Shown: positions 3,219 through 35,806 of the stretch, one piece after another | Layout: every line of letters starts with the position of its first letter | Position numbering within the stretch: position 1 is the first letter of the stretch | DNA from: Candidatus Woesearchaeota archaeon | Lineage (GTDB): Archaea; Nanobdellota; Nanobdellia; SCGC-AAA011-G17; JAGVZY01 | NCBI GenBank assembly: GCA_018302225.1 | Contig: JAGVZY010000004.1 | Span: forward strand, 1-41,309 | Direction of reading: 5' to 3' | DNA length: 41,309 nt | The notes under the pieces: generated by a model | The model's input: only the letters and a program-made list of their open reading frames with translations | Database searches by the model: none | What the model was told of the DNA's origin: nothing | Translations under genes and position numbers: made by a program

Positions 3219-3602
3219 ATGAATAAGAAAGGAGATATGTCCCTTACAACTGTAATAACAGGAATTATACTTTTAATAGTTTTATTAGTAGTAGTGTTTT
3301 TCTTTACAGGAACATTCAATACTATTGGAAAGAAATTAGGTTTTATTTCAGGTACACTTGGAGATGATTTATCTATTACTGTGCAAGCTTGTCAAAATTA
3401 TTGTGAAACTGCAAAAAATTTGCCTAATCCATTAGAAAGAATAAAGAGTATGCCTTTTTGTACTAAACCATTTGCAATTGATAAAAACAATGATGGAAAA
3501 GTAGAAGAAGACGAATTAACAATTAAATGTACAGAACCTCCAATAAGTGCTAAATGTATGATTCCAGATATAAATGGAATAGAAAAAGAAGCAATATGTT
3601 AA
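3219..3602 (+). CDS. Pilin-like protein 1 with class III signal peptide
   Basis: A 127-residue secreted or filament-forming protein of unknown exact family. It begins MNKKGDMSLTTVITG and runs straight into a hydrophobic stretch (residues 10-31), the class III layout in which a prepilin peptidase cuts after the glycine of KKG. The mature part has six cysteines and a short acidic segment, DKNNDGKVEEDE, that matches an EF-hand-like calcium loop (D-x-N-x-D-G-x-x-x-x-E). ATG 3219 was preferred over GTG 3210 and ATG 3216 because of the spacing to GAGGTGG. The stop overlaps the start of the next gene (ATGTTAA). It is the promoter-proximal gene of the cluster and could be the major subunit. Confidence 0.8.
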   Translation: MNKKGDMSLTTVITGIILLIVLLVVVFFFTGTFNTIGKKLGFISGTLGDDLSITVQACQNYCETAKNLPNPLERIKSMPFCTKPFAIDKNNDGKVEEDELTIKCTEPPISAKCMIPDINGIEKEAIC

Positions 3603-3796
3603 TTAAGAGTTCAAAAAAAGGAGAGTTATCCTTAGAAACAGTAATCATAGCAATAATTGCTTTAATTGTTTTGATTACAGTTATTTTAATTTTTAGTAAA
3701 CAAATAAGTAATGCTGCTTCAAGTTTGTTTGGCGTTGCAGACCAAACAAATAGTACAATCTCAAATTTAAACATTGCAGAATCAATCAAAAAATGA
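3596..3796 (+). CDS. Pilin-like protein 2, small, with type IV pilin-like Glu5
   Basis: A 66-residue protein, MLIKSSKKGELSLETVIIA followed by a hydrophobic helix. If cut after KKG the mature protein begins ELSLE, putting a glutamate at position 5, the residue conserved in bacterial type IV pilins, then about 21 hydrophobic residues and a short polar tail. A longer in-frame start at 3554 lies deep inside the upstream gene and would put 14 unlikely residues ahead of the signal. ATG 3596 gives a 7-base overlap, the usual coupling in this operon. It is small enough to be a helical filament core subunit, which is inference. Confidence 0.75.
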   Translation: MLIKSSKKGELSLETVIIAIIALIVLITVILIFSKQISNAASSLFGVADQTNSTISNLNIAESIKK

Positions 3797-3799
3797 AAG

Positions 3800-5473
3800 A
3801 TGATATCTTCAAAAAGAGGCGATACAACAACCCTAGAATTTGTTCTTAGTTTTGTATTCATTCTAATCATTATTGCTCTTGTTGCTACATTTCTAATTGC
3901 CTATTTTAGCAAACCTTTATTCAAAGATGAAACTGTTTTGATTATGGATACAATCTCAACAGAATATGATAAATGTTCTAATTATCAGATTAGCAATTGT
4001 TTATGCTATGTTAATTATATGGATTTACCTCAGGAATATGTTATTGAACTCAGCCCTGGAAAAATTAAACTTTCTGATTCAGATGAAAAAGACATTATTA
4101 ACTTAGAATTAGTAGTAGAAGAAAGAAAAGTTCAAAGTAAATACTTTGCAGGTTTATTATATAAGGCAGAGTTAGATCAATCTGAAGTTCCATTTACTTA
4201 TACACTTAAAAAACTAGAAACTTCAAAAGATTTAATAAAAATAGAAGGTTTTAAAATTTCTAAAGAAGATAAAGAAAAATACTTAAAACTAGGACAACCA
4301 AATCAACCAAGTAGTTTCTTAATTCTAAAAACTAAAGAAAGTCCCATACTTATAACCTTTAAAGGTTTATCAAGTATTTCTAAAATAAGAGAACTAGAAA
4401 ATATGTTTCCTTATTGTAATGAAAACAAATTAAATATTATAGTCTCAAAACCCCATCTTAACATAAACTCTTTAACTCTCATAAATTTTAATAATTTGGC
4501 AATACCGAATAGTATAGCGCCAATCTCCTCTTCTAAATCTTACAACAAATTCATACTCAATTCAGATTTGAATAGAGACAAAATTTATTCAGACAATATT
4601 AATTCAATTATTATCTTTGAAGTAAATTATGATGTCACAGAAGATTCAGTAGAAGCAAAATTCCTTCCAAATAGTATAAATTCAAAATTATTTGCAGACA
4701 ATATCGCCTCAAAATTAAAAGAAAAAAACTCTAAATCTGAATTAGATAACGAAGCTACTCAATTTGAAGATTTAGAAATTACCGAAGGTATACCTGCAGA
4801 AGATTTAGTAAAGATTCCGATAGTAAAAGTAGTAATAAATGATTATATAAAAGAAAATACAAAGTTCAATTTTACTAATACTGATGAAATAAAAGGAATT
4901 CTTTACGAGATTAAGGGCGCATTAGATGCAACTCAATCAAATCAAGCCTTAGACAACACACAAAAAAGCTTAGAAATCAAGGGCTATGAGCTTGAAATTA
5001 CTGGAACAAACAATTGGGTAGATATTTGGAATAAATTAAAGATAACTACAGAAGAGGGAAAATTAGATTTAATCTCAGTAAATCCATTTATGAAAGATGT
5101 TTCTCTAAAAGATGGTGTTTACAAATCTGGAACCCAAGATTTCATTCTAAACACAAACAAAATCATTCTACCGCTTATAGAAATAAAATATGTACAAATA
5201 GATCCAATAAACAAAAAGTTTAGACTATCAAATATAAATGAAAAAGTAAAGTTTGATGATGTTTTAAATATTATAAATATAAAAACTGAAGCCCAGAAAA
5301 AAGCATTCCAGATTTTAAATGATTTAAAAGAAGATGCACAGGGAAATCTAATAAGCGTAAAATCCAAGGGATTCTATTATTATGACTCTCAAGCAAAAAT
5401 TCAAAAGCAATATTATCTAGAACCAAATAAAGAATACAAATACGATGAAACTTTATACACCCCTTTCAAATAA
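3800..5473 (+). CDS. Large pilin-like surface protein 3
   Basis: A 557-residue protein beginning MISSKRGDTTTLEF and a hydrophobic helix of about 24 residues, so it is anchored by the same kind of class III signal (KRG). The remaining roughly 500 residues are predicted extracellular: charged, rich in N, K and I, with four cysteines grouped near residues 53-67 (CSNYQISNCLCY). I do not recognise a domain. A large C-terminal domain on a pilin-type N-terminus suits a minor or tip pilin or an adhesin. The start lies 3 bases after the previous stop. Its 3' end overlaps the next gene by 29 bases. Confidence 0.75.
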   Translation: MISSKRGDTTTLEFVLSFVFILIIIALVATFLIAYFSKPLFKDETVLIMDTISTEYDKCSNYQISNCLCYVNYMDLPQEYVIELSPGKIKLSDSDEKDIINLELVVEERKVQSKYFAGLLYKAELDQSEVPFTYTLKKLETSKDLIKIEGFKISKEDKEKYLKLGQPNQPSSFLILKTKESPILITFKGLSSISKIRELENMFPYCNENKLNIIVSKPHLNINSLTLINFNNLAIPNSIAPISSSKSYNKFILNSDLNRDKIYSDNINSIIIFEVNYDVTEDSVEAKFLPNSINSKLFADNIASKLKEKNSKSELDNEATQFEDLEITEGIPAEDLVKIPIVKVVINDYIKENTKFNFTNTDEIKGILYEIKGALDATQSNQALDNTQKSLEIKGYELEITGTNNWVDIWNKLKITTEEGKLDLISVNPFMKDVSLKDGVYKSGTQDFILNTNKIILPLIEIKYVQIDPINKKFRLSNINEKVKFDDVLNIINIKTEAQKKAFQILNDLKEDAQGNLISVKSKGFYYYDSQAKIQKQYYLEPNKEYKYDETLYTPFK

Positions 5474-5846
5474 AAAAGGAACTGATTTAGTTTTTTATGA
5501 AACTGCAGAAATGATTTTTATAGTTATCGTTATAGTTATGATTTACTTTTCAATAAACAATGTTTTTTCAACAGAAAAATTAGCCAATCAAATAGCTTCA
5601 GAAGAAATTCCAAAATCAGCATTATTAGTAGATACTTTCAGAGATAACACTAAAGTAAATTATTACTATCCAAAAAAAATCAGAATAAAAAGTTCACTAG
5701 AAAATGATTTACTTCATCTTTATTTTTCAACAGGCAAGGAATCTAGAGCAGAACACATAATTATGCCTCCATTTATCAAGGAAATAAACCTTGAAAAACA
5801 AGCAGTTTCAATTGAAAAAGATTCAGGAGAAGTAAAAATAACATGA
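5445..5846 (+). CDS. Pilin-like protein 4
   Basis: A 133-residue protein with an 8-residue leader before NKKG, then TDLVFYETAEM and a hydrophobic helix (about residues 22-39). The soluble part is about 90 residues with no recognised domain. The start lies inside the end of the preceding gene (29-base overlap) and the stop overlaps the next start as ATGA, so expression is probably coupled. The role is inferred only from the signal and position. Confidence 0.72.
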   Translation: MKLYTPLSNKKGTDLVFYETAEMIFIVIVIVMIYFSINNVFSTEKLANQIASEEIPKSALLVDTFRDNTKVNYYYPKKIRIKSSLENDLLHLYFSTGKESRAEHIIMPPFIKEINLEKQAVSIEKDSGEVKIT

Positions 5847-6274
5847 ACAAAAAAGGTTCAGGTGGAACAGGAGGATTCAAAGGAGGGTATTATGTCTTTG
5901 CACTTTTTTTAATCACTATTGGATCTTTTTTAATCATACCTCAGATAAAATCTCTCCATATAGACAAAATTTATTTTGATGCTGACAAATCTTTAATATT
6001 AAATAGAGCAATACAATGTTTGTCTACAGAAGACTTAGGAGTAATAGACAAATCAAAATTTAATGATCTAGATACATGCTTTAAAGGATATAATCAGCTT
6101 TACATAACTATACACCTTTCAATTGAAGAGTATGAATCTTCAAAATATAATATAGTTTTAAAAAAAACAATAGGAAAAGAACACCCAACCGTTCTATCTT
6201 CACAAACTTATATTTTAATCACAGATGGAAAAGAAATAAATAAGGGGAGATTGACAATTGAATATCTCAAATAA
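5843..6274 (+). CDS. Pilin-like protein 5
   Basis: A 143-residue protein beginning MNKKGSGGTGGFKGGYY and a hydrophobic helix (about residues 18-35). Glycines are concentrated between the KKG and the membrane segment, unlike its neighbours, so the peptidase site is less canonical. Two cysteines lie in the soluble part. The start is coupled to the previous stop by ATGA. No family is recognised. Confidence 0.72.
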   Translation: MNKKGSGGTGGFKGGYYVFALFLITIGSFLIIPQIKSLHIDKIYFDADKSLILNRAIQCLSTEDLGVIDKSKFNDLDTCFKGYNQLYITIHLSIEEYESSKYNIVLKKTIGKEHPTVLSSQTYILITDGKEINKGRLTIEYLK

Positions 6275-6776
6275 AAAAGGACTTTATCCAAAAGATTCAG
6301 GAGATTTAGTATTTGCTTCAATATTACTAATATTCGGAGCAGTGCTAGTCTTTGTTCTTTCATCTACAGATATAACTAAAACAATAGAAAGTCCAATAGC
6401 TACTTTTCAAGAATACAGAGGATTAACAGAATTAAATTTCCAGGTTTCTCCGGATTTAGAACCAAGAATTGCCTTATTAAATTTTTTAAGAACTCCTGTA
6501 GAAAGTAAATCTATTGCTGATTTAATTATTGAAAATAACAAAGATAATTCAAAAATAATTAGAGAGAATGGAAAATTTGCCTTAAACTCAATAAGTGCTG
6601 GAAATGCAGGAATTTACATCTTGGGTGATTTAGTTGCAAGTAAGGGCCCAATAAAATATGACTCAGAATTAACTTATTATCTGCCAGGAAATAAAGGTTT
6701 AATACCTATTATTTTGAAATGGGGAGAAGATCCAGGAAAACAAGATTTTATCTTAATGGAGATGGCTAGAATATGA
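6258..6776 (+). CDS. Pilin-like protein 6, TTG start
   Basis: A 172-residue protein starting at TTG 6258, supported by the Shine-Dalgarno GGGGAGA at 6244-6250 seven bases upstream. The sequence opens MNISNKKGLYPKDSGDLVF and enters a hydrophobic helix at about residues 17-34. The remaining 135 residues are mixed alpha/beta by inspection, with no recognised motif and no cysteines. It overlaps the previous gene by 17 bases and the next by ATGA. Confidence 0.72.
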   Translation: MNISNKKGLYPKDSGDLVFASILLIFGAVLVFVLSSTDITKTIESPIATFQEYRGLTELNFQVSPDLEPRIALLNFLRTPVESKSIADLIIENNKDNSKIIRENGKFALNSISAGNAGIYILGDLVASKGPIKYDSELTYYLPGNKGLIPIILKWGEDPGKQDFILMEMARI

Positions 6777-7522
6777 AAAAAGGAATGTTTATGACTTCAG
6801 GAATTATAGGGGCCTTAATAATATTTTTAGTAATTAGCATTTTCATTGCAGATAAAACAAATAAAACTTATCGTCTAGAAGAAAATACAACCTTGCTTAC
6901 AGATATAAATAAAGTAGTCTGGGATACAGAGTATATTAGTTTATATTATGAAAAAGCTTTAGATATTTCTATTACTCAAGCAAAATCAGATTCAAATATT
7001 CTTACAACTAAAAATTGTGGTTCTATTAGTTATAATTCAGAAACAGTTTATTTGATAGCTAATAAAGAAAATCTTTGTAATATTGAAAAAGATAAACTAA
7101 AAAATTTATTTTTCAATAAAATTGTTGAAAACTTTAATTATTATAATCAAGAAATACAAAAAAATTCAGAATATAAATTAAAGAATGAAGATTTTTTATT
7201 AAGCATTCAAAATGAAGATATTACACTTAATTCTAAATCTGGAATAGAATTAGAAATTTCATCTTCAGAAAAGATATTAAAAAAAGAATACACTATAACC
7301 CATTCAAAACCCTTTAGTCTAACAATACATCTAGATTTTTTTGAAGAATATTCAACAACAATAAGTTCTCTAAAATTATTAATTTCTTGCCAACAGAAAA
7401 ATGATAATATTCAAGAATGTGCAAAAACAAAAGACTATAGTTTTAAATTAACTCAAATAAATAAAGAAACATATAAACTAAAAGACACAAAAAATAACCT
7501 AGAATTATTTATTTCAATATAA
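6773..7522 (+). CDS. Pilin-like protein 7
   Basis: A 249-residue protein with a minimal leader, MKKGMFMTSGIIG, directly followed by a hydrophobic helix to about residue 27. The rest is lysine- and asparagine-rich with four cysteines. It is the last gene of the coupled run and joins the previous one by ATGA. After its stop a new TATA-like element serves RPA. No family is recognised; it is assigned to the filament cluster by its N-terminus and by context. Confidence 0.72.
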   Translation: MKKGMFMTSGIIGALIIFLVISIFIADKTNKTYRLEENTTLLTDINKVVWDTEYISLYYEKALDISITQAKSDSNILTTKNCGSISYNSETVYLIANKENLCNIEKDKLKNLFFNKIVENFNYYNQEIQKNSEYKLKNEDFLLSIQNEDITLNSKSGIELEISSSEKILKKEYTITHSKPFSLTIHLDFFEEYSTTISSLKLLISCQQKNDNIQECAKTKDYSFKLTQINKETYKLKDTKNNLELFISI

Positions 7523-7587
7523 ACTTTTTATAGAGTATATTGGAGAATACATATCTATTTATACCCCAAAATCCTCAAAAATTTGAA

Positions 7588-8574
7588 ATGTTTACTCTTG
7601 GTTTTGATGAACTTAAAAAGAGAATTATGGAAGAAAAAGGGCTTTCTTCTGATGAAATAGATTCTAAAGTTAAAGAAAGAATGGACAAACTATCTGGTTT
7701 GATTTCTAAAGAAGGTGCAATCCACATTATCGCAAATGAGCTTGGAATGAAACTTCTTAATCTTAATAAAAAGCGTGTAAAAATAAATCAATTATCGCCT
7801 GGGATGAGAGGTATTGAGCTTAGTGGTAAAGTGGTTAATTTCTATGGGATAAAAGAATTCAAAACAGAAAAACGTTCTGGAAAAGTTGCAAGTATGCTAA
7901 TTGGAGATGAAACAGGAAAGACAAGAATTGTTATCTGGGAAGAAAAATTAATGCCCTTAATAGAAAACATAAAACAAGATGATATTATTAAAGTAACCAG
8001 TGGATATGTGCGTGAAAATAATGGTTATAAAGAAGTTCACTTAGGCGCAGATTCAAAAGTAGATATTAATCCAGAAGGAGAAGCAATAGATTTTGTAGCT
8101 TCATTAGGAGAATTTACAAGAAAGAAAATCTCAGAATTAAATGAGTCTGATAAAAGAATAAGCTTAATTGGAACCATAGTTCAAATATTCGAACCAAAAT
8201 TCTATGAAGTTTGTCCAGAATGTGGAAAAAGAGTAAGACAAGACAATGGTATTTTCAAATGCCTAGAACATAATGAAGTTACTCCAATATTTAACCCAGT
8301 TATAACTGTTTTCTTAGATGATGGAACAGATGCTATACGAGTAGTTTGCTTTAGAGAACAAGCAGAAAAGATTTTAGGTATAGACTCAACAATAATGCAA
8401 AAAGTTCAAGAAAAAACAATAAGCTTTGATGAACTTAAAAAATCAATCTTAGGCTCACAAATGGTAATTAATGGAAAAGTAACTAAAAATGCAATGTTTA
8501 ACAAATTAGAATTTATCGCCTCACAAATTGAAATGGCAGATCCAAAAGTTCTTGTAGAACAATTATTAGTTTAA
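7588..8574 (+). CDS. rpa: Replication protein A, single-stranded DNA binding
   Basis: Archaeal RPA coats single-stranded DNA in replication and repair. The 328-residue protein has the usual N-terminal helical segment (KLSGLISKEGAIHIIANELG), an OB fold around residues 50-140 and a second one near 185-280 containing a zinc site, CPECGK followed by CLEH. A longer reading from TTG 7540 is open, but the TATA-like TTTTTATAG at 7526-7534 would place transcription start downstream of it, and the family normally begins near MFTLGFDEL, so ATG 7588 was chosen. It is a single gene, not split into subunits. Confidence 0.88.
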   Translation: MFTLGFDELKKRIMEEKGLSSDEIDSKVKERMDKLSGLISKEGAIHIIANELGMKLLNLNKKRVKINQLSPGMRGIELSGKVVNFYGIKEFKTEKRSGKVASMLIGDETGKTRIVIWEEKLMPLIENIKQDDIIKVTSGYVRENNGYKEVHLGADSKVDINPEGEAIDFVASLGEFTRKKISELNESDKRISLIGTIVQIFEPKFYEVCPECGKRVRQDNGIFKCLEHNEVTPIFNPVITVFLDDGTDAIRVVCFREQAEKILGIDSTIMQKVQEKTISFDELKKSILGSQMVINGKVTKNAMFNKLEFIASQIEMADPKVLVEQLLV

Positions 8575-13062: not shown

Positions 13063-14685
13063 TTATTTTTTATTTCTAAAATATTTCCTCGGAATTCTTA
13101 CAATTGGTCTTCCAGGTCTATCTAAAATATCTCTTTGTAAACTGCCTATTTCTGCAGATTCAAATAATATTCCAGGAGCATAAGTTGTAGAGGGAATTTC
13201 TCCGGACAACGAACCACAAGTTCCATCATCAAAAACATATTGATCAGTTGTTGCAACAATTTTATTTAACAAAGTATAAACTGTTCCAATCATATAAGCA
13301 TCTCTTACTCTTTCAAGTTTTTTTCTTCCAGGATAAATTCTAAATGTATAAGCTGGATAAACTGTTAAAAGAGAATTCTCATAATCTATACACCCATGAG
13401 AAGCTCTACGCATAATCAAACCATAAGGTATTTTTTTATTTATACAAATTTTAATCATCTTTTCTTTTAATTTATCAAAGCTATACACTTTTTCAGATTC
13501 AAGAATCAAATTACTCATTCTTGAAACTGGAGATAAGGTATCTTGAGCCAAACCATGACCATTTGATTTAATACCTAAGTAACCTGCACTTTGTCTAGAA
13601 GTTAAATAATTTTTAAGAATCCCATTTTTAATTAATTCAACTTTTTCTGCCTTAACTCCTTCTTCATCTATAAAATGATAAGTATACGAATTAGGAATTA
13701 AAGGATCATCATATAATGAGATAAAATCCGGAGCAACTTTCTTGCCTATTTTATTTTCAAAAATATTAACTTTTCTTTCTTGAAATCTTTCACGAATATC
13801 TTGTTGCATAATTACGCCCTCAAGAATATGTCCTGCACCTTCATGTGCAACAAACCCGCCAAAATGACCTTCTGAAAGCAAAGGATACACACCATGTACT
13901 TCAACAGGTGCATCTTTAATTTCATTTAAATCTTCTATTAATTTTTCACCCAATTCGATTAAGGTTTCATTGTTAGGCAATTTAGTATAATCTCTTCCAG
14001 AAAGAAGACGAGACAAAGGAATAACTAAATTTTCTTTATTTAACATTTCAATAGTAAGATTAATAGCATAATTCAAAAAAGGTGTAAAGACTTTAGTGCC
14101 TTCTGAATTAATTAAATATCTTTTAATCTGAGTCACCCTACACGATATATTAGTGTTTAATACTTCTTTTTTAAGAAGTTTTGCAGATACTTCAGATAAT
14201 CTTTCTTCAAGATCTTGGTATATTCCAGTAACATCCAAATTTTTTTTGTCTCTTGCAATATACTTAATAGGTTCTTCTTCAGAAAAATACAAAAATACAT
14301 CTCTTAAGCCTTTATATTCTATATTCTTTTGTTTTCTGATATTATAATCCTCAGAAGCATCCCAATAAGCTTTGTTAAAACCCCTTATCAATTCTCTCAT
14401 ACTTCCAGTTTCATTTATATTTGTAGGAAGAATAATCTCTTCTGTACCAAATCCTCCCCCTTTTTTATAATCACCTATTCTAACTTCTATTCTCCCTTGA
14501 ATCGGGTCGTCTTCACTAAATTCTTCATTGATTACACCCCCATTTTTAATTTTAAAAAGTAGTTCTCTTTTATTTTTAGTACTAATAGAAGTAAAAAATG
14601 GGCTAAGAATTTTATTATTATATTTAGCGTCTAATACCTTTTTAAGTCCTTTTTCCATTACTCCAAATAACTTCTCATCAGCCAT
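13063..14685 (-). CDS. tldD: TldD-family metallopeptidase, copy 2
   Basis: A 540-residue predicted zinc peptidase of the TldD/PmbA family, which degrades unfolded peptides or matures ribosomally made ones. The zinc/catalytic motif HEGAGH is at His281-Glu282-His286 and the third-ligand cysteine region is DGTCGSLSG. RQSAGYLG and ASHGCIDYE mark the C-terminal domain. It is longer than E. coli TldD (about 480). Start ATG 14685 (MADEKLF) was preferred over GTG 14694 because the TATA at 14712-14718 would give a leaderless message. It is a diverged paralogue of the next gene, with the motif at the identical residue numbers. Confidence 0.88.
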   Translation of the reverse strand: MADEKLFGVMEKGLKKVLDAKYNNKILSPFFTSISTKNKRELLFKIKNGGVINEEFSEDDPIQGRIEVRIGDYKKGGGFGTEEIILPTNINETGSMRELIRGFNKAYWDASEDYNIRKQKNIEYKGLRDVFLYFSEEEPIKYIARDKKNLDVTGIYQDLEERLSEVSAKLLKKEVLNTNISCRVTQIKRYLINSEGTKVFTPFLNYAINLTIEMLNKENLVIPLSRLLSGRDYTKLPNNETLIELGEKLIEDLNEIKDAPVEVHGVYPLLSEGHFGGFVAHEGAGHILEGVIMQQDIRERFQERKVNIFENKIGKKVAPDFISLYDDPLIPNSYTYHFIDEEGVKAEKVELIKNGILKNYLTSRQSAGYLGIKSNGHGLAQDTLSPVSRMSNLILESEKVYSFDKLKEKMIKICINKKIPYGLIMRRASHGCIDYENSLLTVYPAYTFRIYPGRKKLERVRDAYMIGTVYTLLNKIVATTDQYVFDDGTCGSLSGEIPSTTYAPGILFESAEIGSLQRDILDRPGRPIVRIPRKYFRNKK

Positions 14686-14745
14686 ACAAAGCACATTTTA
14701 AAGATTTAAGCTTATAAAACTAATGTTACATAATTAATCCAAGTA

Positions 14746-16371
14746 TTACTTCTTTGTTTTAAAATATCTTTCAGGGGCTCTTGTTACTTGTATTCTAAGC
14801 TTTTCATATGAAGATTTAGGAATTTTATTTAGTTCTAATTCTGGGATGAATATATCTGGTGCAATCTCAGCAGAAGTAACCCAACCAGAGACAGAACCAC
14901 AATATCCTTCAAAAGTACCCAATCTATTACTTGCCGCAGCTATGCTTTGTAATAATTTGTAAGGTGTTCCAACAATATACATATGACTAACCCTTTCACG
15001 TTTTTTATTATTTGGAAAAATCTTGAAAACATGCACTGGATGAGTGCTAAAGTAAGCATCTTCTGGTAAAGCTAAACCTTGTGAAGCTCTTTCCATAATT
15101 AATCCAAAAGGTTTTTTATTCTCTACGCAATATTGTTTTACTCTTTCTTCAAGCTCTTCAATAGAATATTTATTTGTTGATTCTATAAACAGATTACTCA
15201 TTCTAGGTTTCGGTGTATTATTTTTATCAGCTCTTGCATGCCCATTTGAATGTTGTTTTAAATATCCTGCACTTTGTCTAGAATTCAAATATCCTTTTAA
15301 TTTTCCTTTTTCTACAAGGATTACTTTTTTTGCTTTAGTGCCTTCATCATCAATAAAATAATATCCAGATAAATCTACTCGAGTAGGATCATCATAAACT
15401 GAGAGATGTTTAGGCATTACAATTTCGCCTATTTTATCTTCAAATATTGTAGACTTTTCACGTTCTTCTTCATAACTTTCAGCATCACCTTGCAAACTAT
15501 CCCCTTCTAAGGCATGACCTATTGCTTCGTGAAATATTACCCCTGTGTTTTCAGGATCAAGTATTGTGGGATAAAGGCCATTAGGTATGGCTGGTGCATC
15601 TTTTATTGCAAAGGCATCCTCAATACATTTTTCACATAATTCTTTAAGTATATTATAATTAGGTATTTTCGCAAGACTGCTTTTAGCAATACTATAACTA
15701 ATAGGGATAATTATTCCTTTTTGATTTATTATTTCAACTGTAAAACCCATCCTATAATTTTTGCTTTCTGTAAATACTCGCGTACCTTCACTATTTACAA
15801 TATAATTTCTAGTTTTATTAAAATCAAATATAGAATAGATATTATAGATTTTTCTTCTAAGAGACTCAAGCGAAATTTTTTTTATATTTTCAGAAGTCTC
15901 ATTAATCAAATCTAAAGGAAGTCTTTTTTCTTGAGCAACATATCTAATTGGTTTTTCATCAGCAAAATAAACAAATAAATCTCGTGTATCTAAAAAACCT
16001 TCTGCAGCTTTCATCCTATCTTTAAGATTTTCATAGGATTCCCAAAAAGTATTATTAATCTGATGATTAAGCTCTTTCATACAAGAAGTTTTGTTCATAT
16101 CTCTAGGAAGTTCAGAGGTATTTGAAGAAAAACTTCCCCCTTCTTTTTTGTCACCTAGGCGGATTTCAATTCTTACTAACACAGGATTAAGATCATTAAT
16201 TTTTTTTATTAGCCCCCCGTTCCTATATTCAAAACTAAAATCTTCAGTTTCTTTTCCGCTCATAGAAACAAAGAAGGGCTTATGCTTAGCGCCATCTCTA
16301 GAAGTATAATCAATACTTTTAGCCATTTTAACGCCCTCTTCAAGAATATTAAACAGTTCTATTTTAACCAT
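14746..16371 (-). CDS. tldD: TldD-family metallopeptidase, copy 1
   Basis: A 541-residue TldD-type metallopeptidase. HEAIGH (His281, Glu282, His286) is the zinc site, in the conserved setting GVIFHEAIGHALEGD, and EGYCGSVSG holds the third ligand. RQSAGYLKQHSNGHARAD is close to the family consensus, so this is the more typical of the two copies. Usually TldD pairs with PmbA/TldE, which lacks HExxxH; no such partner is present here, and the neighbour also retains the motif. A symmetric TTTATAAA at 16394-16401 lies about 26 bases upstream, so the message should be leaderless. Confidence 0.92.
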   Translation of the reverse strand: MVKIELFNILEEGVKMAKSIDYTSRDGAKHKPFFVSMSGKETEDFSFEYRNGGLIKKINDLNPVLVRIEIRLGDKKEGGSFSSNTSELPRDMNKTSCMKELNHQINNTFWESYENLKDRMKAAEGFLDTRDLFVYFADEKPIRYVAQEKRLPLDLINETSENIKKISLESLRRKIYNIYSIFDFNKTRNYIVNSEGTRVFTESKNYRMGFTVEIINQKGIIIPISYSIAKSSLAKIPNYNILKELCEKCIEDAFAIKDAPAIPNGLYPTILDPENTGVIFHEAIGHALEGDSLQGDAESYEEEREKSTIFEDKIGEIVMPKHLSVYDDPTRVDLSGYYFIDDEGTKAKKVILVEKGKLKGYLNSRQSAGYLKQHSNGHARADKNNTPKPRMSNLFIESTNKYSIEELEERVKQYCVENKKPFGLIMERASQGLALPEDAYFSTHPVHVFKIFPNNKKRERVSHMYIVGTPYKLLQSIAAASNRLGTFEGYCGSVSGWVTSAEIAPDIFIPELELNKIPKSSYEKLRIQVTRAPERYFKTKK

Positions 16372-16412: not shown

Positions 16413-17273
16413 CTAAATAAGGTTTATTAACCGGAATAAGATAACCTCTTTGAATATTAAAGAAATAATAACACCTAACAAAAACGCAGGTGCAAATGCA
16501 AATCCTTCCTTAATAGTCACTTTTTTAATTTTTGCTTTTAATAATAAGTCTATTTGTTTTCTTTCAACGCCTATGCTCTTGCAATTATAAATTTTTTTGC
16601 CTTTAATAAAAATATCTTTAATTATCCAATCGCCCTCTCTTAAATTTTTAACTGGAATATCTTTAATCATACAGCATTCTTCCACAGACTTTAATATTGC
16701 CCATGCATAACTAGAAATTAAACTAAACAAGGCAATAGCATTAAACATAATCTTTAAAATTGCATCGTCTAAAAAAAATTGTAATAAAAAAACAATTATT
16801 GCCAAAATAAAGGTGTAATACTTTTGTTTTTTTATTTCTTTATTTATTATTTTAAACTTTAAAATAAATTTTTTCCAGTTTTTCACAATTAAATAACCTG
16901 CACCGAATAAATTATATAGCAAACCAACAATTAATATATTCATAAATATAACTAACACAAAAGGAATTTTAGTTTCAAAAGGCGCAGTCGCAAACAACAC
17001 TGCAATTCCAATTAATAATTTGGAATCCCCTCCACCCCATTGTTTAGTATAGTACAAAATATTTGCAAGTGCAAAAAATATTAAAAAGTAAATTAAGGCA
17101 ATAGTAAATATTTTAGCATCTTTTTCAGCTATAGCATAAATTCCTCTTATCGATAACCCTAGAAAAACTAAAGAATAAGTTATAACATCTGGAATTTCCT
17201 TAATTTTAATATCTACAATTGTAGCAATAATCAAACCTAAAAGTGCTATTATGCTTAAAATTAGATATAACAT
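16413..17273 (-). CDS. Archaeal prepilin/preflagellin peptidase (A24 family)
   Basis: A membrane aspartyl protease that removes class III signal peptides from pilin- or archaellin-type proteins on the cytoplasmic side. The catalytic aspartates are Asp21 (ATIVDIKIKEIPD) and Asp83 in the GxGD motif, KQWGGGDSKLLIG. At 286 residues it is longer than FlaK. After the six-helix core there is a soluble segment, CCMIKDIPVKNLREGDWI, and a last hydrophobic stretch, consistent with the 'A24 C-terminus type II' extension of some archaeal peptidases. It probably processes the seven KKG-type proteins at 3219-7522 and perhaps the protein at 20021. It is leaderless from the TATA at 17296-17303. Confidence 0.87.
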   Translation of the reverse strand: MLYLILSIIALLGLIIATIVDIKIKEIPDVITYSLVFLGLSIRGIYAIAEKDAKIFTIALIYFLIFFALANILYYTKQWGGGDSKLLIGIAVLFATAPFETKIPFVLVIFMNILIVGLLYNLFGAGYLIVKNWKKFILKFKIINKEIKKQKYYTFILAIIVFLLQFFLDDAILKIMFNAIALFSLISSYAWAILKSVEECCMIKDIPVKNLREGDWIIKDIFIKGKKIYNCKSIGVERKQIDLLLKAKIKKVTIKEGFAFAPAFLLGVIISLIFKEVILFRLINLI

Positions 17274-20020: not shown

Positions 20021-21181
20021 ATGAAGTTCAAGAAGGGTGTGGATACAAATGCATCTGCTGTAGCAAGTCTTATAGCAGTGATTGCATTATTTATGATTGT
20101 AGTTATACTGCTTATGCCTTCGCAAGAAAGACATGATCTTCTTGGTGATAATCCTTCAATTTCAGGAACAAATAATAGTAAAGTAATTCTATCTGAGTAT
20201 ACAGGTAATGTAAATCCTACAGAAAAAGAAGCAACAATCAAGCATATACTTCAACCAGTTCATTTGTTTACAGAAGATGAAAGTGAAGTAATCTCTTTGT
20301 CAGATGGAACAGAGGTTAAAAAATCTCTTTTTAACTCGATTGAAAGAGAATTTAATTTAAAGGTGGATGAACCACAAAATATTAAAGATTTATCATTATA
20401 TGTTTTAGCTTCAGAAGTGTCAGGAAATTTAATTATTAAATTAAATGATGAAATAATCTTCGATGAAAAACTTGAAAAAAATCAACCCAAAATTATTCAA
20501 CTTCCTAATTCCAAAATTAAAAATAACAACCTAATAAGAGTCTCAGTAGGTTCTCCAGGATTATTAGTCGGAACTAACTTATATAATATAGAATATATTA
20601 AAGCAAGAAAGTCTTACAGTATTGTAAATAATAATGCCGAAAGACAACTGTCTATAACTGCTTCAGAATTGTCAGGAACTTCAAAAGCTTTACTAAGTTA
20701 TGAATGTATCTCAGAAGAAATTGGCTCAAAATTAAGAATATATCTTAATAATAATATTATATTTAACAGCTATTTAGATTGTAGCACAGAAACACCCATA
20801 GAGTTAGACAAATCTTATTTAATACAGGGGCCAAATAAATTAATATTTGAAACAACTTCAGGAAATTATTTAATTAATGATATAAAGTTAGAAACAATCT
20901 CAGAGAAAAAAGGATACCCAGAATATTACTTTAAGATAGACGACTCAGATTACAAAGAAATAAGGTTTGGAAATTTAGATGTAATACTTTCCTTCTTCTT
21001 ATATGGGGATAGCAAAAAGCTTAATGTTTATATAAACGAAAATAAAATCGAAATTTCAACAGATGAAAGTAATTATTTAACTTCTATCTCAAAGTATATA
21101 CAAAAGGGAGATAATTCGTTAAAAATAGAACCTTTAACATCGTTTGAGATAATAAGTCTTAAAGTTGAAATTGCAAAATAA
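20021..21181 (+). CDS. Membrane-anchored surface protein with three internal beta repeats
   Basis: A 386-residue protein. MKFKKGVDTNASAVASLIAV leads into one hydrophobic helix, so it carries a KKG that could be a class III site, though the charged-to-hydrophobic spacing is loose. The extracellular part has three diverged repeats of roughly 100 residues, each centred on the same pattern: LIIKLNDEIIF, LRIYLNNNIIF and LNVYINENKIE, then a polar strand and NNLIRV, PNKLIFE or DNSLKIE. They look like beta-sandwich domains. It is the first gene of a four-gene surface cluster, divergent from Pelota. No family is recognised. Confidence 0.75.
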   Translation: MKFKKGVDTNASAVASLIAVIALFMIVVILLMPSQERHDLLGDNPSISGTNNSKVILSEYTGNVNPTEKEATIKHILQPVHLFTEDESEVISLSDGTEVKKSLFNSIEREFNLKVDEPQNIKDLSLYVLASEVSGNLIIKLNDEIIFDEKLEKNQPKIIQLPNSKIKNNNLIRVSVGSPGLLVGTNLYNIEYIKARKSYSIVNNNAERQLSITASELSGTSKALLSYECISEEIGSKLRIYLNNNIIFNSYLDCSTETPIELDKSYLIQGPNKLIFETTSGNYLINDIKLETISEKKGYPEYYFKIDDSDYKEIRFGNLDVILSFFLYGDSKKLNVYINENKIEISTDESNYLTSISKYIQKGDNSLKIEPLTSFEIISLKVEIAK

Positions 21182-21209: not shown

Positions 21210-22514
21210 ATGCCAGAAGCATCTTCAGTTACACCCCCAACTAGTCCAAAGGGTTCAGGTTTCCTTAGTTTTTTAGGTGGTGCAGTAAAAGAAAAAATTA
21301 AAAACAAAATAGAATCCGGTGAGTCTAAAACAAAAGAACACAAACCTATTCATATTCCTATTAACCTAATTATATTTGTCTTATTTGTTTTGCTTATCAT
21401 AGGTTTTTTTACATTAGGTTCAGACTCAGGATGGACACAGACCACCCTACAACCTCTAAAAAATCTTTATGATGATGCAATCAAACCATTTGTAAAATCT
21501 GGTGTAGAAGGATTAGAAGAAACTTCTAGAATGATTACTGAAGGGCCAAGTTATCAATTCAAAAGTTCAAACACAAAAAATTCAGAAAAAACAGGGATTG
21601 AATTGGGAAAAGCAGAAGTAGTCTCGGGTATAAATGGGGGTTTTATTTCATCAACCTCTCCCTTAAGAGTAAGAAGCAAGATTGAAATCAATCAACTTGA
21701 TGAAAACATAAAAAGTATACCTGCAGAAATATCTTGTGAAATGGATAACTCTTCAGGAGAATTAAAAACCGGTTTTCCACAAAGAAAAGTAGGTAGCAAA
21801 CAAATAGTAACCTATCCAAATACTGGTGAACCTTATGAAGACACTGCAACTTGTACATTTAAACAAACAACTTCAGAAGAGTTTAGAAAAAATTTAATTT
21901 CTTATAATTCAAAAGATATTTACTTCACATTAACCTATTATTTTGAAAATTTTGCAGAATTAGATATTAATATTGTAAGTCCAGATGTAGACTATTCGCT
22001 CAGTCCAAAAGACAGAAAGCAAATTCCTTCTATAATGAATTATAAAAGTGACTTAGACATTTCTCTTTATTTTGATTCTCAGCCAGTTGTAGCTGAAGGT
22101 ATGTCTAAAGATGGATCTTTATCAGATGGCCTGACTTACTTAAACTTAGGATTAATCAACAAAAAGCAAGATACTGAAGTAAAGATTAATAGTTTGAGTT
22201 TAGAACTGCCAAAAGGAGTTTCATTACAAGACTATTCTGATTATTTTGAAGCTAAGCAAAATTCTTATTCTTTAAAAGACACAGAAATAAAAAAATGGGA
22301 AAATTCTTTAAAAAAAGGTCAAAAAGCTTACATTTCAGTTCCAGTACAAGTTTCAGAATTGGCTTTAGGTGGTTCAAAGCAAACACTTGGAGCACCAGTA
22401 ACTCTTAAAGCAAGACTTATAGCAAATTATGCTTATAAATTAAAAGAAAAAACAACTATAAATATGAATTCTATTGATAGCACTAAAGAAAAAAGTGCAG
22501 AGTTACTTATTTAA
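21210..22514 (+). CDS. Single-pass membrane protein of surface cluster
   Basis: A 434-residue protein with a cytoplasmic N-terminus of about 50 residues (proline/serine-rich, then lysine-rich), one membrane helix at about residues 51-69 (INLIIFVLFVLLIIGFF) and a large extracellular domain. The outside part has beta-rich segments, such as SSTSPLRVRSKIEINQLDE and LDISLYFDSQPVVAEG, with few cysteines. The start has a GAGGTTGAT ribosome site. It follows the triple-repeat protein by 28 bases and precedes two lipoproteins. The function is unknown; a scaffold for an envelope complex is only a guess. Confidence 0.75.
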   Translation: MPEASSVTPPTSPKGSGFLSFLGGAVKEKIKNKIESGESKTKEHKPIHIPINLIIFVLFVLLIIGFFTLGSDSGWTQTTLQPLKNLYDDAIKPFVKSGVEGLEETSRMITEGPSYQFKSSNTKNSEKTGIELGKAEVVSGINGGFISSTSPLRVRSKIEINQLDENIKSIPAEISCEMDNSSGELKTGFPQRKVGSKQIVTYPNTGEPYEDTATCTFKQTTSEEFRKNLISYNSKDIYFTLTYYFENFAELDINIVSPDVDYSLSPKDRKQIPSIMNYKSDLDISLYFDSQPVVAEGMSKDGSLSDGLTYLNLGLINKKQDTEVKINSLSLELPKGVSLQDYSDYFEAKQNSYSLKDTEIKKWENSLKKGQKAYISVPVQVSELALGGSKQTLGAPVTLKARLIANYAYKLKEKTTINMNSIDSTKEKSAELLI

Positions 22515-22565: not shown

Positions 22566-23546
22566 ATGGTATTTAGTAAATTTAAGATATTATTAGTTTT
22601 ATTTGTAAGCTTAATATTACTTACTGCTGGTGCAGGGTGTGATACTTCTAGTGCAGGCTTAAAATCATTTAGTTTAGGTAATAGTGGGGGCTCTAGATCA
22701 GTTACAAAAGAAGATGATTTCTCAGGAACAAAAGGTTTAAACATACAATTTATGGAAGGGCGTCCTCCTTCAGAAATTTATAAAGATAGTCCTTTTAGTA
22801 TAGGTTTTACTGTAAAAAATGAAGGTGCATTTGATGTTCAAGATGGTGCAGTCTGTTTTGGTAGCTTAAGTGAAGATGTATTTTCAAAGCCAGATACTTG
22901 TTTACCTCTTGGAAATTTGTATGGAAGAAGAAATATGATTGGTGGAGAATCAAAAGAATATATTGAAGAAGGTTATAATTTTAAATTAGATTATAGATTA
23001 GACACAAATTATCCTATTAAAGGAAAAGCTTGTTATTCATATGAAATGAATATACCCTTTAGTGTTTGTTTAAAATCTTTAGAAGTAGGTGCAGAAAATT
23101 CATGTAACACTGGAATGTTAACTTTAACTCCTTCGTCACAAGGCGGACCGATACAAATTGTTTCAATAAAAGAAGATATTATTCCAACTGAAAACCAAAA
23201 TGAAATAATGTTAACCATATTACTAAAAAATACTGATGCTGGAAAAGTATATGATTCTTCATCAATCTCTTCAGGATCTTGCCCTTCTATTTCAGATAGT
23301 GCAATAAAAAATAAAGCAAAAATTACAGTTTCACTTCCAGGAGAATATGGTACTGCAAAATGTACTCCTGCAAATTATGCAATGTTTGACAATTCAGGAA
23401 ATGCAAAAGTAATTTGTAAAGAAATTTATTATGAAAAAGATAAATCTTACCCATTAGAAGCTAATATTAATCTTAAATTTGGATATGTAATCGAAAAAGA
23501 AGGAACATTCAAATTAAAAGCAAAAATGAATCAAAATGTGGTTTAA
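22566..23546 (+). CDS. Putative lipoprotein A of surface cluster
   Basis: A 326-residue exported protein. The N-terminal signal ends in a lipobox-like TAGAGC (Cys24), so the mature protein may be anchored by a lipid on the cysteine. Then comes a low-complexity G/S segment and a first domain, LNIQFMEGRPPSEIYKDSPF with FTVKNEGAFDVQDG, of the immunoglobulin-like or CARDB type. It has many cysteines. It is a paralogue of the next gene (same layout FxxxxPPxxxY ... LKNKGxxPV). A TATA-like CTATTTAAAG near 22534 gives it its own possible promoter. Confidence 0.75.
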   Translation: MVFSKFKILLVLFVSLILLTAGAGCDTSSAGLKSFSLGNSGGSRSVTKEDDFSGTKGLNIQFMEGRPPSEIYKDSPFSIGFTVKNEGAFDVQDGAVCFGSLSEDVFSKPDTCLPLGNLYGRRNMIGGESKEYIEEGYNFKLDYRLDTNYPIKGKACYSYEMNIPFSVCLKSLEVGAENSCNTGMLTLTPSSQGGPIQIVSIKEDIIPTENQNEIMLTILLKNTDAGKVYDSSSISSGSCPSISDSAIKNKAKITVSLPGEYGTAKCTPANYAMFDNSGNAKVICKEIYYEKDKSYPLEANINLKFGYVIEKEGTFKLKAKMNQNVV

Positions 23547-23564: not shown

Positions 23565-24500
23565 ATGAACATTAAATATATAAATTATATACTTGTAATT
23601 TTGCTTTCAGGACTTTTAGTAGTCTCAGGAGCAGATTGTAGTAGTAAAAAGAAAGTAGACACCTCTGCAACATTTATTGGTGGAAATCAAGGCTTAGAAT
23701 TAAGTTTTGTTCAAGATATGCCTCCCGAAACAAATAATTATCAAAATGAACAATTTCCAATAAGCGTTCTTCTTAAAAATAAAGGAGAATATCCCGTAAA
23801 AAAAGATACAGTTGTAGTAAAAATAATTAAAACTTTTACAGATAAAAATTTCAAACTTACAAAACCAAAATCTTCAACTATTCATGATTTACTTCCAGCA
23901 TCAAAAGGATTAAATAATGAAATAGATTATGATGATGCAATAGTGGATTTAGGTTATGCAACTTATACTGCACAAACAATGTCACCAGATTACAAACCCG
24001 ATCTTTCAGTTGAAGCCTGTTATCCTTATAAAACAATGTTTAAATTAGACAAATTCTGTATACCTTCAACAAGCAGGGCTACAGAAGATCAAACATGTTT
24101 AATTGATCAAACAAAGAATCTTGTTACAGCAAACTCCAATTCAGGAGCACCAGTTCAAATAACTTCAATAAGACAAGAAATAGTACAAAATGCAGTTAGA
24201 ATTACTTTAGAAATTTCTAAACTTGGAGATGGAAAAGTTATAGAATGTGTTGAAAATCCAGAATCTAAAGATAAAAATAAAATAACTGTTCACATAAACT
24301 CTCCAACAGATATTAATTGTGGATTTACAGAAGGTTCAGGTAATTCTGGAATAGTTATACTAAAGAGCGATAATACTGCAAAATTAATCTGTGAAAAAGC
24401 AGCAGTCTCAGGAAAAGCTTATAATATAAACTTTGAAGCTTCCTTAGATTATAGCTTTACACAAGAAGTATCAAAACAAGTCATAATTAAAAAGACTTGA
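23565..24500 (+). CDS. Putative lipoprotein B of surface cluster
   Basis: A 311-residue exported protein starting behind a perfect AGGAGGAGAT ribosome site. The signal sequence ends at the lipobox-like VVSGADC (Cys25). The body repeats the layout of lipoprotein A: LELSFVQDMPPETNNYQNEQ, then VLLKNKGEYPVKKD, and a C-terminal half with paired cysteines and GAPVQITSIRQEI, which corresponds to GGPIQIVSIKEDI in A. The two are tandem duplicates that have diverged strongly. Substrate or partner is unknown. Confidence 0.75.
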   Translation: MNIKYINYILVILLSGLLVVSGADCSSKKKVDTSATFIGGNQGLELSFVQDMPPETNNYQNEQFPISVLLKNKGEYPVKKDTVVVKIIKTFTDKNFKLTKPKSSTIHDLLPASKGLNNEIDYDDAIVDLGYATYTAQTMSPDYKPDLSVEACYPYKTMFKLDKFCIPSTSRATEDQTCLIDQTKNLVTANSNSGAPVQITSIRQEIVQNAVRITLEISKLGDGKVIECVENPESKDKNKITVHINSPTDINCGFTEGSGNSGIVILKSDNTAKLICEKAAVSGKAYNINFEASLDYSFTQEVSKQVIIKKT

Positions 24501-34200: not shown

Positions 34201-34356
34201 AGAGCGAGTGAAGCCCATATACTATTAAATAAGGCACCCATGGGTTTATTTAGCATTTTAACTATTGAGGATCGCAAATCTATAGAAGAGATAATCAAAG
34301 AGTCAAGAAAGAAGCTTCAAAATGCTACGCTAACAAAAAAACATGAAACTAAATAA
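31264..34356 (+). CDS. Large modular surface protein with cytoplasmic coiled-coil tail
   Basis: A 1030-residue protein. A signal anchor (about residues 7-27) is followed by a sialidase-like beta-propeller of at least five repeats with the pattern VHAVWSD, FVVWIDYRD, LVVWDDDRD, VHVVWEDARA and LFVVWRYT. Then come one or two PKD/cadherin-like domains (about 420-596), a G/S-rich linker (near 601-613), a thrombospondin type 1-like segment (QWSCSQWSDCTEKGIQTRTC), a membrane helix (about 779-800) and a 230-residue charged cytoplasmic tail (helical, tetratricopeptide-like or coiled coil). N-x-S/T sequons are very frequent in the outer part, fitting the glycosyltransferases that follow. The start overlaps the regulator gene by 8 bases. 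Confidence 0.85.
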   Translation: MNKISKIGILVFLLVSIIFTSIFIFANSAPNIHYAEPSTGNVWSNSKNLTDQTSYAQDIQIAIDSSGNVHAVWSDTELNSDTSNTDEVHYSMYNTTSKAWERDSWPSVDINSPSSNASIAVNSTDSPFVVWIDYRDSEAQGRVYYNIYDDAAQNWTNNSVLMDNTSARAYSVDVAIGFNDTILVVWDDDRDTDLSGNYFETYYRLFNNTMEWENETNLTVDDDLDTGIPKVVAGYDDMYYIVYNDFGDNTAYEVELRTINASNNSYSDIPPIITSPDTANSLRADLAVTVDNTVHVVWEDARAGAEGIYYRTYNLETDTLGTETFLSGGYGSSAVNPSISANGTDLFVVWRYTNVSTRMIALTEYKNSAWTIPQNISINSATNAAKPAVASDKNGNAYIFDYDDYPGISTDIPNIFFFTKTKSELVNISKRSTISFNITAIDTDSDAIDYLWYFDDYGNATTDNFTYISNGSDTGWHNITVYVNSSNQLATTDFWNLSIYNIIPTCAVIPTTSWVQDTSQTLNLSLYITDLDEDAINYTYTEVDNIAIATDNDTEIATLTPTAGWTGSVGIVFSGWDEENEGVDCSNATFTVTASTPTSTPGGGSSGGGGGGSSTILSCTKQWSCSQWSDCTEKGIQTRTCSCSCSDGKCLGDHSEFKFCSYSYEIPYELKSPLEEGIEKMLKQSGLDLSLYPGITDKLEKDLAELLKKYSYEDKPKINFKYGDEGFSITADDVTIDVKLNKDNEGIFTKPSLDVNINTTKGTSHTEVPSKRYSIIKDSFWILIILVIILLLLLIYVLIKDKNERWHIYLWGRAPISKWKEECSKIKELVNKGNYFDSMKRYKQISTVYKKLPKYYKNFDSFGEIHNLLIDTYKTISLRFFKSEKMPESREGQWRLVFNEKIIKERLERLDSLLKQENLNQFVLEFASLLKQYKKYLDNSPKQGQFHSQMVKLGKVLDEKLLEEEKLRFNKINRLVDINRASEAHILLNKAPMGLFSILTIEDRKSIEEIIKESRKKLQNATLTKKHETK

Positions 34357-35806
34357 ATATATAATTGCATTGATTTTTGTAATCCTTCTATCCAGATTTA
34401 TCTTCGAGTTTTCAACACCTGAGTTTAGTAATGGAAAGTCTTATTTTTATATAAAGCAAATAGAAAGTATCAAAGATACAGGTAAAGTTTCTCAGACAGA
34501 AGCTCAGAATATAAATTTGCTTACTCTTTCCCCATTATTTTCCTATCTATTAGTACCTTTTTCAATATTTGGAAATGGGGGTATTAAAATATTTATATCT
34601 TTACTAATTGTATTTGCAGCAATAGTTTTATTTTATTTTTCAAAATTATTTTGTAAAGACGAAAAAATTTGTTTTATCTCAACTTTACTTTTTAGTTTTT
34701 CCCCCGTATTATTTAAAATAACCTTAAACAAAATATCTCTTATTCCTATCATTTTATTTTTAATGCTTGGAATAATTTATTTTTCTTTAAATCTCAAATT
34801 TAAAAACAATATAACCTATTTTATTATACTTTCATTTATATTGGCCTTAATCTCTCCAATGTCCATTTTAATTGCTTTTGCATTAATAATTTATTTATTA
34901 CTTATGTTATCTGAGTCAATGAAACTTGAAAGACTTAAAGGAGAAGCGATTATTTTCTGTATCTTTGCAATTATATTCTCCAATCTTTTAATTTATAAGA
35001 ATGTTTTATTTAGTTCAGGATTACAAGGATTAACGCAGAATACTCCTTTAGATCCATTAAACATAGAATTTGCTAGTCTAAGTATAATAAATCTAATTTT
35101 AAGTGTAGGAGTTTTAATCTTAATCTTTGGCATAATTGGTTTAATAGCTTCAATCTATTCAAAACCTCCAGAGTATGTTCTTATAAACTTAGCATTCATA
35201 ATCTCAACAATTATACTTCTCATATCCAGGACTATCAACCCCTATATCGGTTTACTCATTTTAATAGCTCCACTAACATTATTTTCTGCAAAAGGGCTTG
35301 AATTATTATATGAATATTATAAAAAAACCAAACTTATTAGATTTAAAAGAGGTTTTTATATATTTATTATCCTTTTATTTTTAATTTCAAATGTTTATCT
35401 TAGTTTAGATGCAGGAAATCAAACTATAAAAAATTCAATTACTTCAGAAGAAATAAATACTCTTCAATGGTTAAAGGATAACCTCCCAAAATCTGCTCTT
35501 ATTTTAACCTCGCCAGAAGAAAGCCATCTTATAACTTATTTTATAGAAAGAAAAACCGTTTGGGATGATTATACTCTTTCTAGAATAGAAATAGAAGAAA
35601 AAACAAAAGATATACAAACTATTTATACCACCAATTCAGAAACAAAGGCATTAAATTTAATAAAAAAGTATGAGATAAATTATATATATTTTTCAAATTT
35701 AACAAAAGAAAAATATTTAGTTAAAGAAATAGAATATGCAAATGACAAAACTTGCTTTGAAAGAATCAGGAATGGAAACCCAGAAATCATCAAAATCCAG
35801 TGCTAA
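34343..35806 (+). CDS. GT-C-like membrane glycosyltransferase 1
   Basis: A 487-residue polytopic protein with about 10-12 membrane helices and a soluble C-terminal domain of about 120 residues. The first outside loop, STPEFSNGKSYFYIKQIESI, resembles the acidic first loop of STT3/GT-C enzymes but lacks a clear DxD. The C-terminal domain, TLQWLKDNLPKSALILTS then YFIERKTVWDDYT, is like those of dolichol-dependent transferases. It is a paralogue of the next gene. Its start lies 14 bases inside the surface-protein gene. A role in glycosylating that protein is inferred from context. Confidence 0.75.
   Translation: MKLNKYIIALIFVILLSRFIFEFSTPEFSNGKSYFYIKQIESIKDTGKVSQTEAQNINLLTLSPLFSYLLVPFSIFGNGGIKIFISLLIVFAAIVLFYFSKLFCKDEKICFISTLLFSFSPVLFKITLNKISLIPIILFLMLGIIYFSLNLKFKNNITYFIILSFILALISPMSILIAFALIIYLLLMLSESMKLERLKGEAIIFCIFAIIFSNLLIYKNVLFSSGLQGLTQNTPLDPLNIEFASLSIINLILSVGVLILIFGIIGLIASIYSKPPEYVLINLAFIISTIILLISRTINPYIGLLILIAPLTLFSAKGLELLYEYYKKTKLIRFKRGFYIFIILLFLISNVYLSLDAGNQTIKNSITSEEINTLQWLKDNLPKSALILTSPEESHLITYFIERKTVWDDYTLSRIEIEEKTKDIQTIYTTNSETKALNLIKKYEINYIYFSNLTKEKYLVKEIEYANDKTCFERIRNGNPEIIKIQC

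Follow-up and report, generated by a model that had tools for sequence, protein, structure and literature searches.

The question raised by this locus is which machine could be built from seven tandem genes for pilin-like proteins that have no secretion ATPase beside them. The stretch of DNA analysed here (hereafter the window) is 41,309 nucleotides long and makes up an entire contig (C4) of the genome of a Candidatus Woesearchaeota archaeon, which measures 814 kb in 21 contigs and has an estimated completeness of 99.4%. By sequence search, the relatives of the window belong to the Woesearchaeota/Nanoarchaeia, and the phylum is made up of tiny, reduced archaea that mostly depend on hosts. The seven genes, here called p1 to p7 (positions 3219-7522; Table 1), had been described in a first-pass annotation as pilin-type subunits of either a new type of filament or one that uses a motor encoded elsewhere. 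The present analysis indicates that p1 to p7 very probably supply the pilin-like subunits, both major and minor, for a type IV pilus-like machine that is near-universal in the Nanoarchaeota/Woesearchaeota phylum, and that in this genome they have been split from their probable motor, which is found on contig C5.

Seven consecutive genes carry prepilin signals

Open reading frames (ORFs) were scanned for two basic residues (K/R-K/R) and a glycine followed by a hydrophobic helix, and the background was taken from a sample of ~254 kb of the same genome, comprising the window and 12 stretches that were partly picked around ATPase matches; the sample takes in the pilus loci. As the first-pass annotation had reported, K(K/R)G followed by a hydrophobic helix is present in all seven consecutive proteins, all encoded on the plus strand. 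This is far over background: 20 of the 294 ORFs in the sample carry the signal, mostly within pilus-type loci, and the 13 carriers outside the window comprise nine in three such loci (on contigs C5, C6, and C14) and four that are scattered. Given this base rate, the run of seven is real and not a product of chance. The handling of overlapping ORFs left p2 without a separate row in the scan, and its signal is plain from the sequence; the weakest signals are those of p5 and p6, where the helix starts ~8-13 residues past the glycine. The genes are tightly packed (gaps of -7, +3, -29, -4, -17, and -4 nt from p1 to p7), a TATA-like stretch (ACTTTATATATTG) lies upstream of p1, and a GAGGTGG ribosome site lies immediately 5' of it; from this arrangement, p1 to p7 look like one transcription unit.

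Pfam searches with p1 to p7 returned no family above cut-off and, to E=1, no archaellin match; p2 matched Flp1_like at 1.9e-4 and 21.3 bits, under the curated cut-off of 33.5. The glutamate at position 5 that had been pointed out in p2 is present there; none of the other six proteins has it, and it does not characterise the family, with E at +5 in 0 of 22 p1 orthologues. In an alignment of 30 orthologues of p1, the candidate major pilin, up to six cysteines are shared and an EF-hand-like D-x-D-x-D-G loop is found in most, suggesting that p1 may form disulfides and bind calcium; EF-hand models match p1 weakly (0.015). The mature helix of the orthologues has a near-constant start of the L-S-M-N type, from which p1 of the window deviates. 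Members of the p1 family were detected in 143 of 157 genomes across the phylum, and many of the matches in other orders span the N-terminal half only.

The array adjoins a motor in related genomes

Few relatives were matched when p6 was used alone as a query, because the subunits evolve fast, and this search was superseded by surveys anchored on the platform gene and on the gene for an RPA-like OB-fold protein. The ~700-aa platform was found in 94 of the 103 genomes of the order, and the RPA-like gene, the neighbour of p7 on its downstream side, in 83 of the 103. Both markers were present in 76 genomes, and in 40 of these they share contig and strand at a distance of 4.9-10.7 kb; in the rest they are mostly on different draft contigs, and in three they are clearly apart on one contig. 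Across the phylum, the platform is present in 362 of 371 sampled genomes, mostly as a single copy. The gene order in the relatives begins with two multi-transmembrane (multi-TM) genes, two divergent coiled-coil genes, the ATPase, the platform, and three KKG proteins (~280, ~50, and 200-500 aa), and continues with p1 (~125 aa), p2 (~60 aa), p3 (160-560 aa), p4 (~130 aa), p5 (~160 aa), p6 (~165 aa), p7 (~250 aa), and the RPA-like gene. This order, which the first-pass annotation had proposed to look for, is conserved in about 40 loci from many families, and named genomes of an independent collection (including GW2011_AR20, CP010426.1) agree with it.

Profiles were also built for each position of the array from 22 relatives, with the window left out. 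In six of seven cases, the profile had as its best match the corresponding gene of the window (p1, 4.2e-26; p2, 2.1e-18; p4, 1.7e-6; p5, 4.3e-17; p6, 2.2e-7; p7, 1.1e-7), and the signal of p7 was recognised in 22 of the 22 relatives. The window p3 was not recovered by its position profile and its orthology by sequence is not demonstrated; the position itself is conserved in the relatives, with lengths of ~160-560 aa, and the earlier description of p3 as a large tip protein is thus unproven. Taken together, the contiguous locus conserved in relatives and the six position-specific matches indicate that p1 to p7 are the distal half of this locus, which is split in the present genome. The break separates p1 from the third KKG protein, and it lies inside the contigs on both sides, where unrelated genes flank it, and not at contig ends; misassembly is possible. 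As a separate observation, very large proteins (~650-790 aa) replace the p1 to p7 array 3' of the platform in some relatives (loci L149, L163, and L187), perhaps as an expanded variant.

The probable motor of the array lies on another contig

It had been stated that no ATPase or TadC-like gene is adjacent to the array, and this is true at the locus; however, it is wrong for the genome as a whole, in which the secretion ATPase family has four matches above cut-off, at least three TadA/FlaI-type ATPases are encoded, and the T2SSF platform family has four matches in two loci. On contigs C6 and C14, one ATPase gene each is accompanied by two platform genes and by adjacent pilins specific to that locus. 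The third ATPase, on contig C5, is 760 aa long with intact Walker A and B motifs (T2SSE, 1.8e-13), and its best PDB matches with phmmer were an archaeal type II secretion protein (2oap, 8e-25), CpaF (2e-21), and FlaI (7e-17); the C6 and C14 ATPases are only ~28% identical to it. It is followed by a 726-aa multi-TM platform, a KKG protein of 294 aa (K294), a KKG frame of ~50 residues, a KKG protein of 498 aa (K498), and then unrelated genes. The short frame (INKKGEFAFGKIGNFILILVAAVLILLLILFLFG; L013:10735-10885) matches the conserved K50 position and has none of the usual start codons ATG, GTG, and TTG; translation may begin at a rare one. The genome-wide search therefore favors the suggestion that the motor is encoded elsewhere, and it does not support the view that the missing motor points to a new filament type: a motor is in the genome and adjoins the array in many relatives. 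Besides the split locus, this genome has two conventional pilus loci, at L011:7810-17293 and L012:6544-13000, with pilins, motors, and platforms. Three small multi-TM proteins of ~180-200 aa with no clear family are encoded 5' of the C5 ATPase (L013:2025-3824), and these are also conserved near the ATPase in other orders of the phylum.

On the basis of profile comparison and structure prediction, the C5 platform is a divergent member of the GspF/PilC/TadC type. Pfam T2SSF reaches 6 of 23 C5-type platform members, weakly, and PF00482 was found in the platforms of two relatives at 1.8e-5 and 1.4e-4. A platform alignment compared by hhalign with the T2SSF domain alignment gave 7.6e-5 over the domain, and nothing was found when it was compared with single TadC sequences. 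An AlphaFold2 model of the GW2011_AR20 orthologue (mean confidence, pLDDT, 79) matched the cytoplasmic domain of OutF (5nbg) in Foldseek with a probability of 1.00 and a TM-score of 0.72 by target, and matched EpsF and PilC with a probability of 0.99.

A single prepilin peptidase and a second module

The window also encodes an A24 prepilin peptidase, the co-occurrence of which had been named as a check on the pilin assignment, and it is the sole one found in the genome; with the conserved gene order, its presence bears out the assignment of p1 to p7 as pilin-type subunits. The hallmarks of a type IV filament found for this system are class III signals, an A24 peptidase with the conserved aspartate and GxGD, an ATPase linked in relatives, and a GspF/PilC/TadC-type platform. 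A second module lies further along the window (Table 1). Homologues of its 434-aa membrane protein are encoded between p7 and the OB-fold gene in family f5 and just 5' of the OB-fold gene in family f4. Since homologues of the membrane protein and of the lipoproteins lie beside the array in these families, they are probably parts of the same machine. The RPA-like protein is probably outside it.

In the mechanism that we propose, the prepilins would enter the membrane, the sole A24 peptidase would cut them after the glycine, the C5 ATPase with its platform would polymerise p1 on an initiating complex of p3 to p7, and the 434-aa membrane protein and the lipoproteins would aid assembly or display.

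Table 1. Positions in the window of the array, the peptidase, the RPA-like neighbour, and the second module
Feature	Position	Strand	Description
p1	3219..3602	+	127 aa, candidate major pilin; KKG signal, six conserved Cys and a loop resembling an EF-hand (DKNNDGKVEEDE)
p2	3596..3796	+	66 aa, small pilin-like; N-terminus resembles p1, Cys domain absent
p3	3800..5473	+	557 aa, large KRG protein; possible tip or adhesin subunit
p4	5445..5846	+	133 aa, minor pilin-like protein
p5	5843..6274	+	143 aa, minor pilin-like protein
p6	6258..6776	+	172 aa, minor pilin-like protein; TTG start, LLNFLRTPV motif
p7	6773..7522	+	249 aa, minor pilin-like protein
RPA-like OB-fold protein	7540..8574	+	PF01336 3.3e-14, PF08646 4.4e-11; conserved downstream neighbour, marker
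A24 prepilin peptidase	16413..17273	-	PF01478 1.5e-10; DIKIKEIPD and GGGD motifs
KKG protein, second module	20021..21181	+	386 aa; conserved in families f10 and f5 (6.5e-63 and 9.4e-74)
Membrane protein, second module	21210..22514	+	434 aa; homologues 2.2e-17 to 9.1e-9
Lipoprotein 1, second module	22566..23546	+	Homologous to array-side lipoproteins in f5 and f4, e.g. 2.2e-9
Lipoprotein 2, second module	23565..24500	+	Same family as lipoprotein 1, up to 1.4e-53

Alternative explanations

Several results weigh against the assignment of p1 to p7 to a filament driven by the C5 motor. The filament and the cleavage after glycine are predictions from the genes, and a recognisable signal at the p2 to p6 positions is found in 13-19 of the 22 relatives and is thus often absent. 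Outside the order, the array is usually not beside the motor; in several other orders, a KKG array lies directly 5' of the RPA-like and YdjM genes with the motor elsewhere. A predicted model of p1 (pLDDT 80) had no PDB match at E<0.001, so that a pilin fold is supported for the N-terminal helix only and the predicted ectodomain is left without a solved counterpart. The Foldseek E-values for the platform exceed 0.1, and its support is the high match probability to several GspF-type domains.

It is possible, if rather doubtful, that the subunits instead form a short pseudopilus within a type II-like machine for protein export, and no surface filament. The many minor pilin-like subunits against one candidate major, the associated lipoproteins and membrane protein, and the match of the platform domain to OutF and EpsF besides PilC would all fit a pseudopilus; however, no consistently linked substrate gene was seen, archaea have no outer membrane for such a piston to serve, and the surface appendages of Nanobdella cells include a second type whose identity is not established (PMC11104419). 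A DNA-uptake pilus, in which linkage to the RPA-like OB-fold gene and RadA would mark a competence-like system that passes imported DNA on to recombination, is improbable. The OB-fold gene does lie directly 3' of the array, in this order as well as outside it, and RadA follows a few genes later, but the OB-fold protein is the only PF08646 match in the genome; it probably serves as the replicative RPA, its linkage to the array may reflect old synteny, and the linkage is for this reason weak evidence for DNA uptake. Assembly of p1 to p7 by the C6 or C14 motor, with the C5 motor serving only its own KKG proteins, is more improbable still: all three motors are in the genome, but p1 to p7 are contiguous with a C5-type motor across many families, and the other two adjoin different pilins and are divergent from the C5 ATPase. 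Finally, although the signals of p5 and p6 are weak, there is practically no chance that p1 to p7 are unrelated small single-pass membrane proteins with a fortuitous KKG, which is contradicted by the base rate of the signal, the conserved gene order, and the position-specific orthology.

Relation to known systems and predicted use

Motor loci of this kind are already published for DPANN archaea. Two conserved loci that combine CpaF, TadC, and coiled-coil proteins were reported in 2024 from Woesearchaeota, Pacearchaeota, Nanoarchaeota, and others, in a paper whose text names filament proteins for Locus 1 only (PMC11291902, Fig. 4). By gene content, the C5 locus is likened to Locus 2, sharing a CpaF-type ATPase, a platform, and two coiled-coil genes; the text of that paper mentions neither the p1 to p7 array and its connection with the motor nor the lipoprotein module or the RPA linkage. 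A 2019 review by Makarova et al. predicted that signal-peptide "dark matter" proteins near FlaI-type and TadC genes in DPANN are diverse pilins (PMC6393860, Fig. 2A), in a general statement with examples whose text holds no gene-by-gene families or distribution. The homologues of FlaJ/TadC in Nanoarchaeota were discussed in a 2018 paper as possible symbiosis genes (PMC6142677), and pili are not mentioned in a comparative-genomics paper on Woesearchaeota. The pilin array and its linkage appear undescribed as far as the main texts of the openly available papers searched go. The array supplies the likely missing subunits to a kind of motor locus known to be conserved in DPANN, and the split locus explains why p1 to p7 look motorless in this genome.

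The system resembles archaeal type IV pili (Makarova, Koonin and Albers 2016, PMC4858521) in its class III signals, A24 peptidase, secretion ATPase, and TadC-type platform, but it differs in a highly divergent platform, most members of which escape Pfam T2SSF, a cysteine-rich p1, about ten subunits, and an ATPase well removed in sequence from the two conventional ones of the genome. An ATPase of FlaI type, a platform of FlaJ type, and class III signals are shared with the archaellum; however, p1 to p7 match no archaellin profile, and in contrast to the bacterial Tad/Flp pilus, no Flp-type major pilin was found above the curated cut-off.

The most likely use of the machine, as predicted from the lifestyle of these cells and from structures seen in DPANN by cryo-electron tomography, is host-cell contact. 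In Nanobdella and YN1, imaging has shown attachment structures between such cells and their hosts, to which proteins have yet to be assigned (PMC11104419, PMC11420986), and the machine described here is near-universal in the phylum. We regard it as unlikely, yet worth stating, that the array encodes the filament, and perhaps more, of the host-contact apparatus of the phylum, namely the thin filament or tube that belongs to the attachment organelle of Nanobdella and YN1; if so, this filament would consist of p1, with its many cysteines and possible calcium binding. For labelling and proteomics in existing co-cultures, the platform and the families of p1 and p7 offer concrete targets.

Other features of the window

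A pair of neighbouring genes that look like paralogues (543 and 541 aa) occupies 13063-16371 on the minus strand and may be TldD/PmbA-like. On inspection, two multi-TM proteins resembling membrane glycosyltransferases and a family 2-type glycosyltransferase are encoded in a row at 34343-38419.
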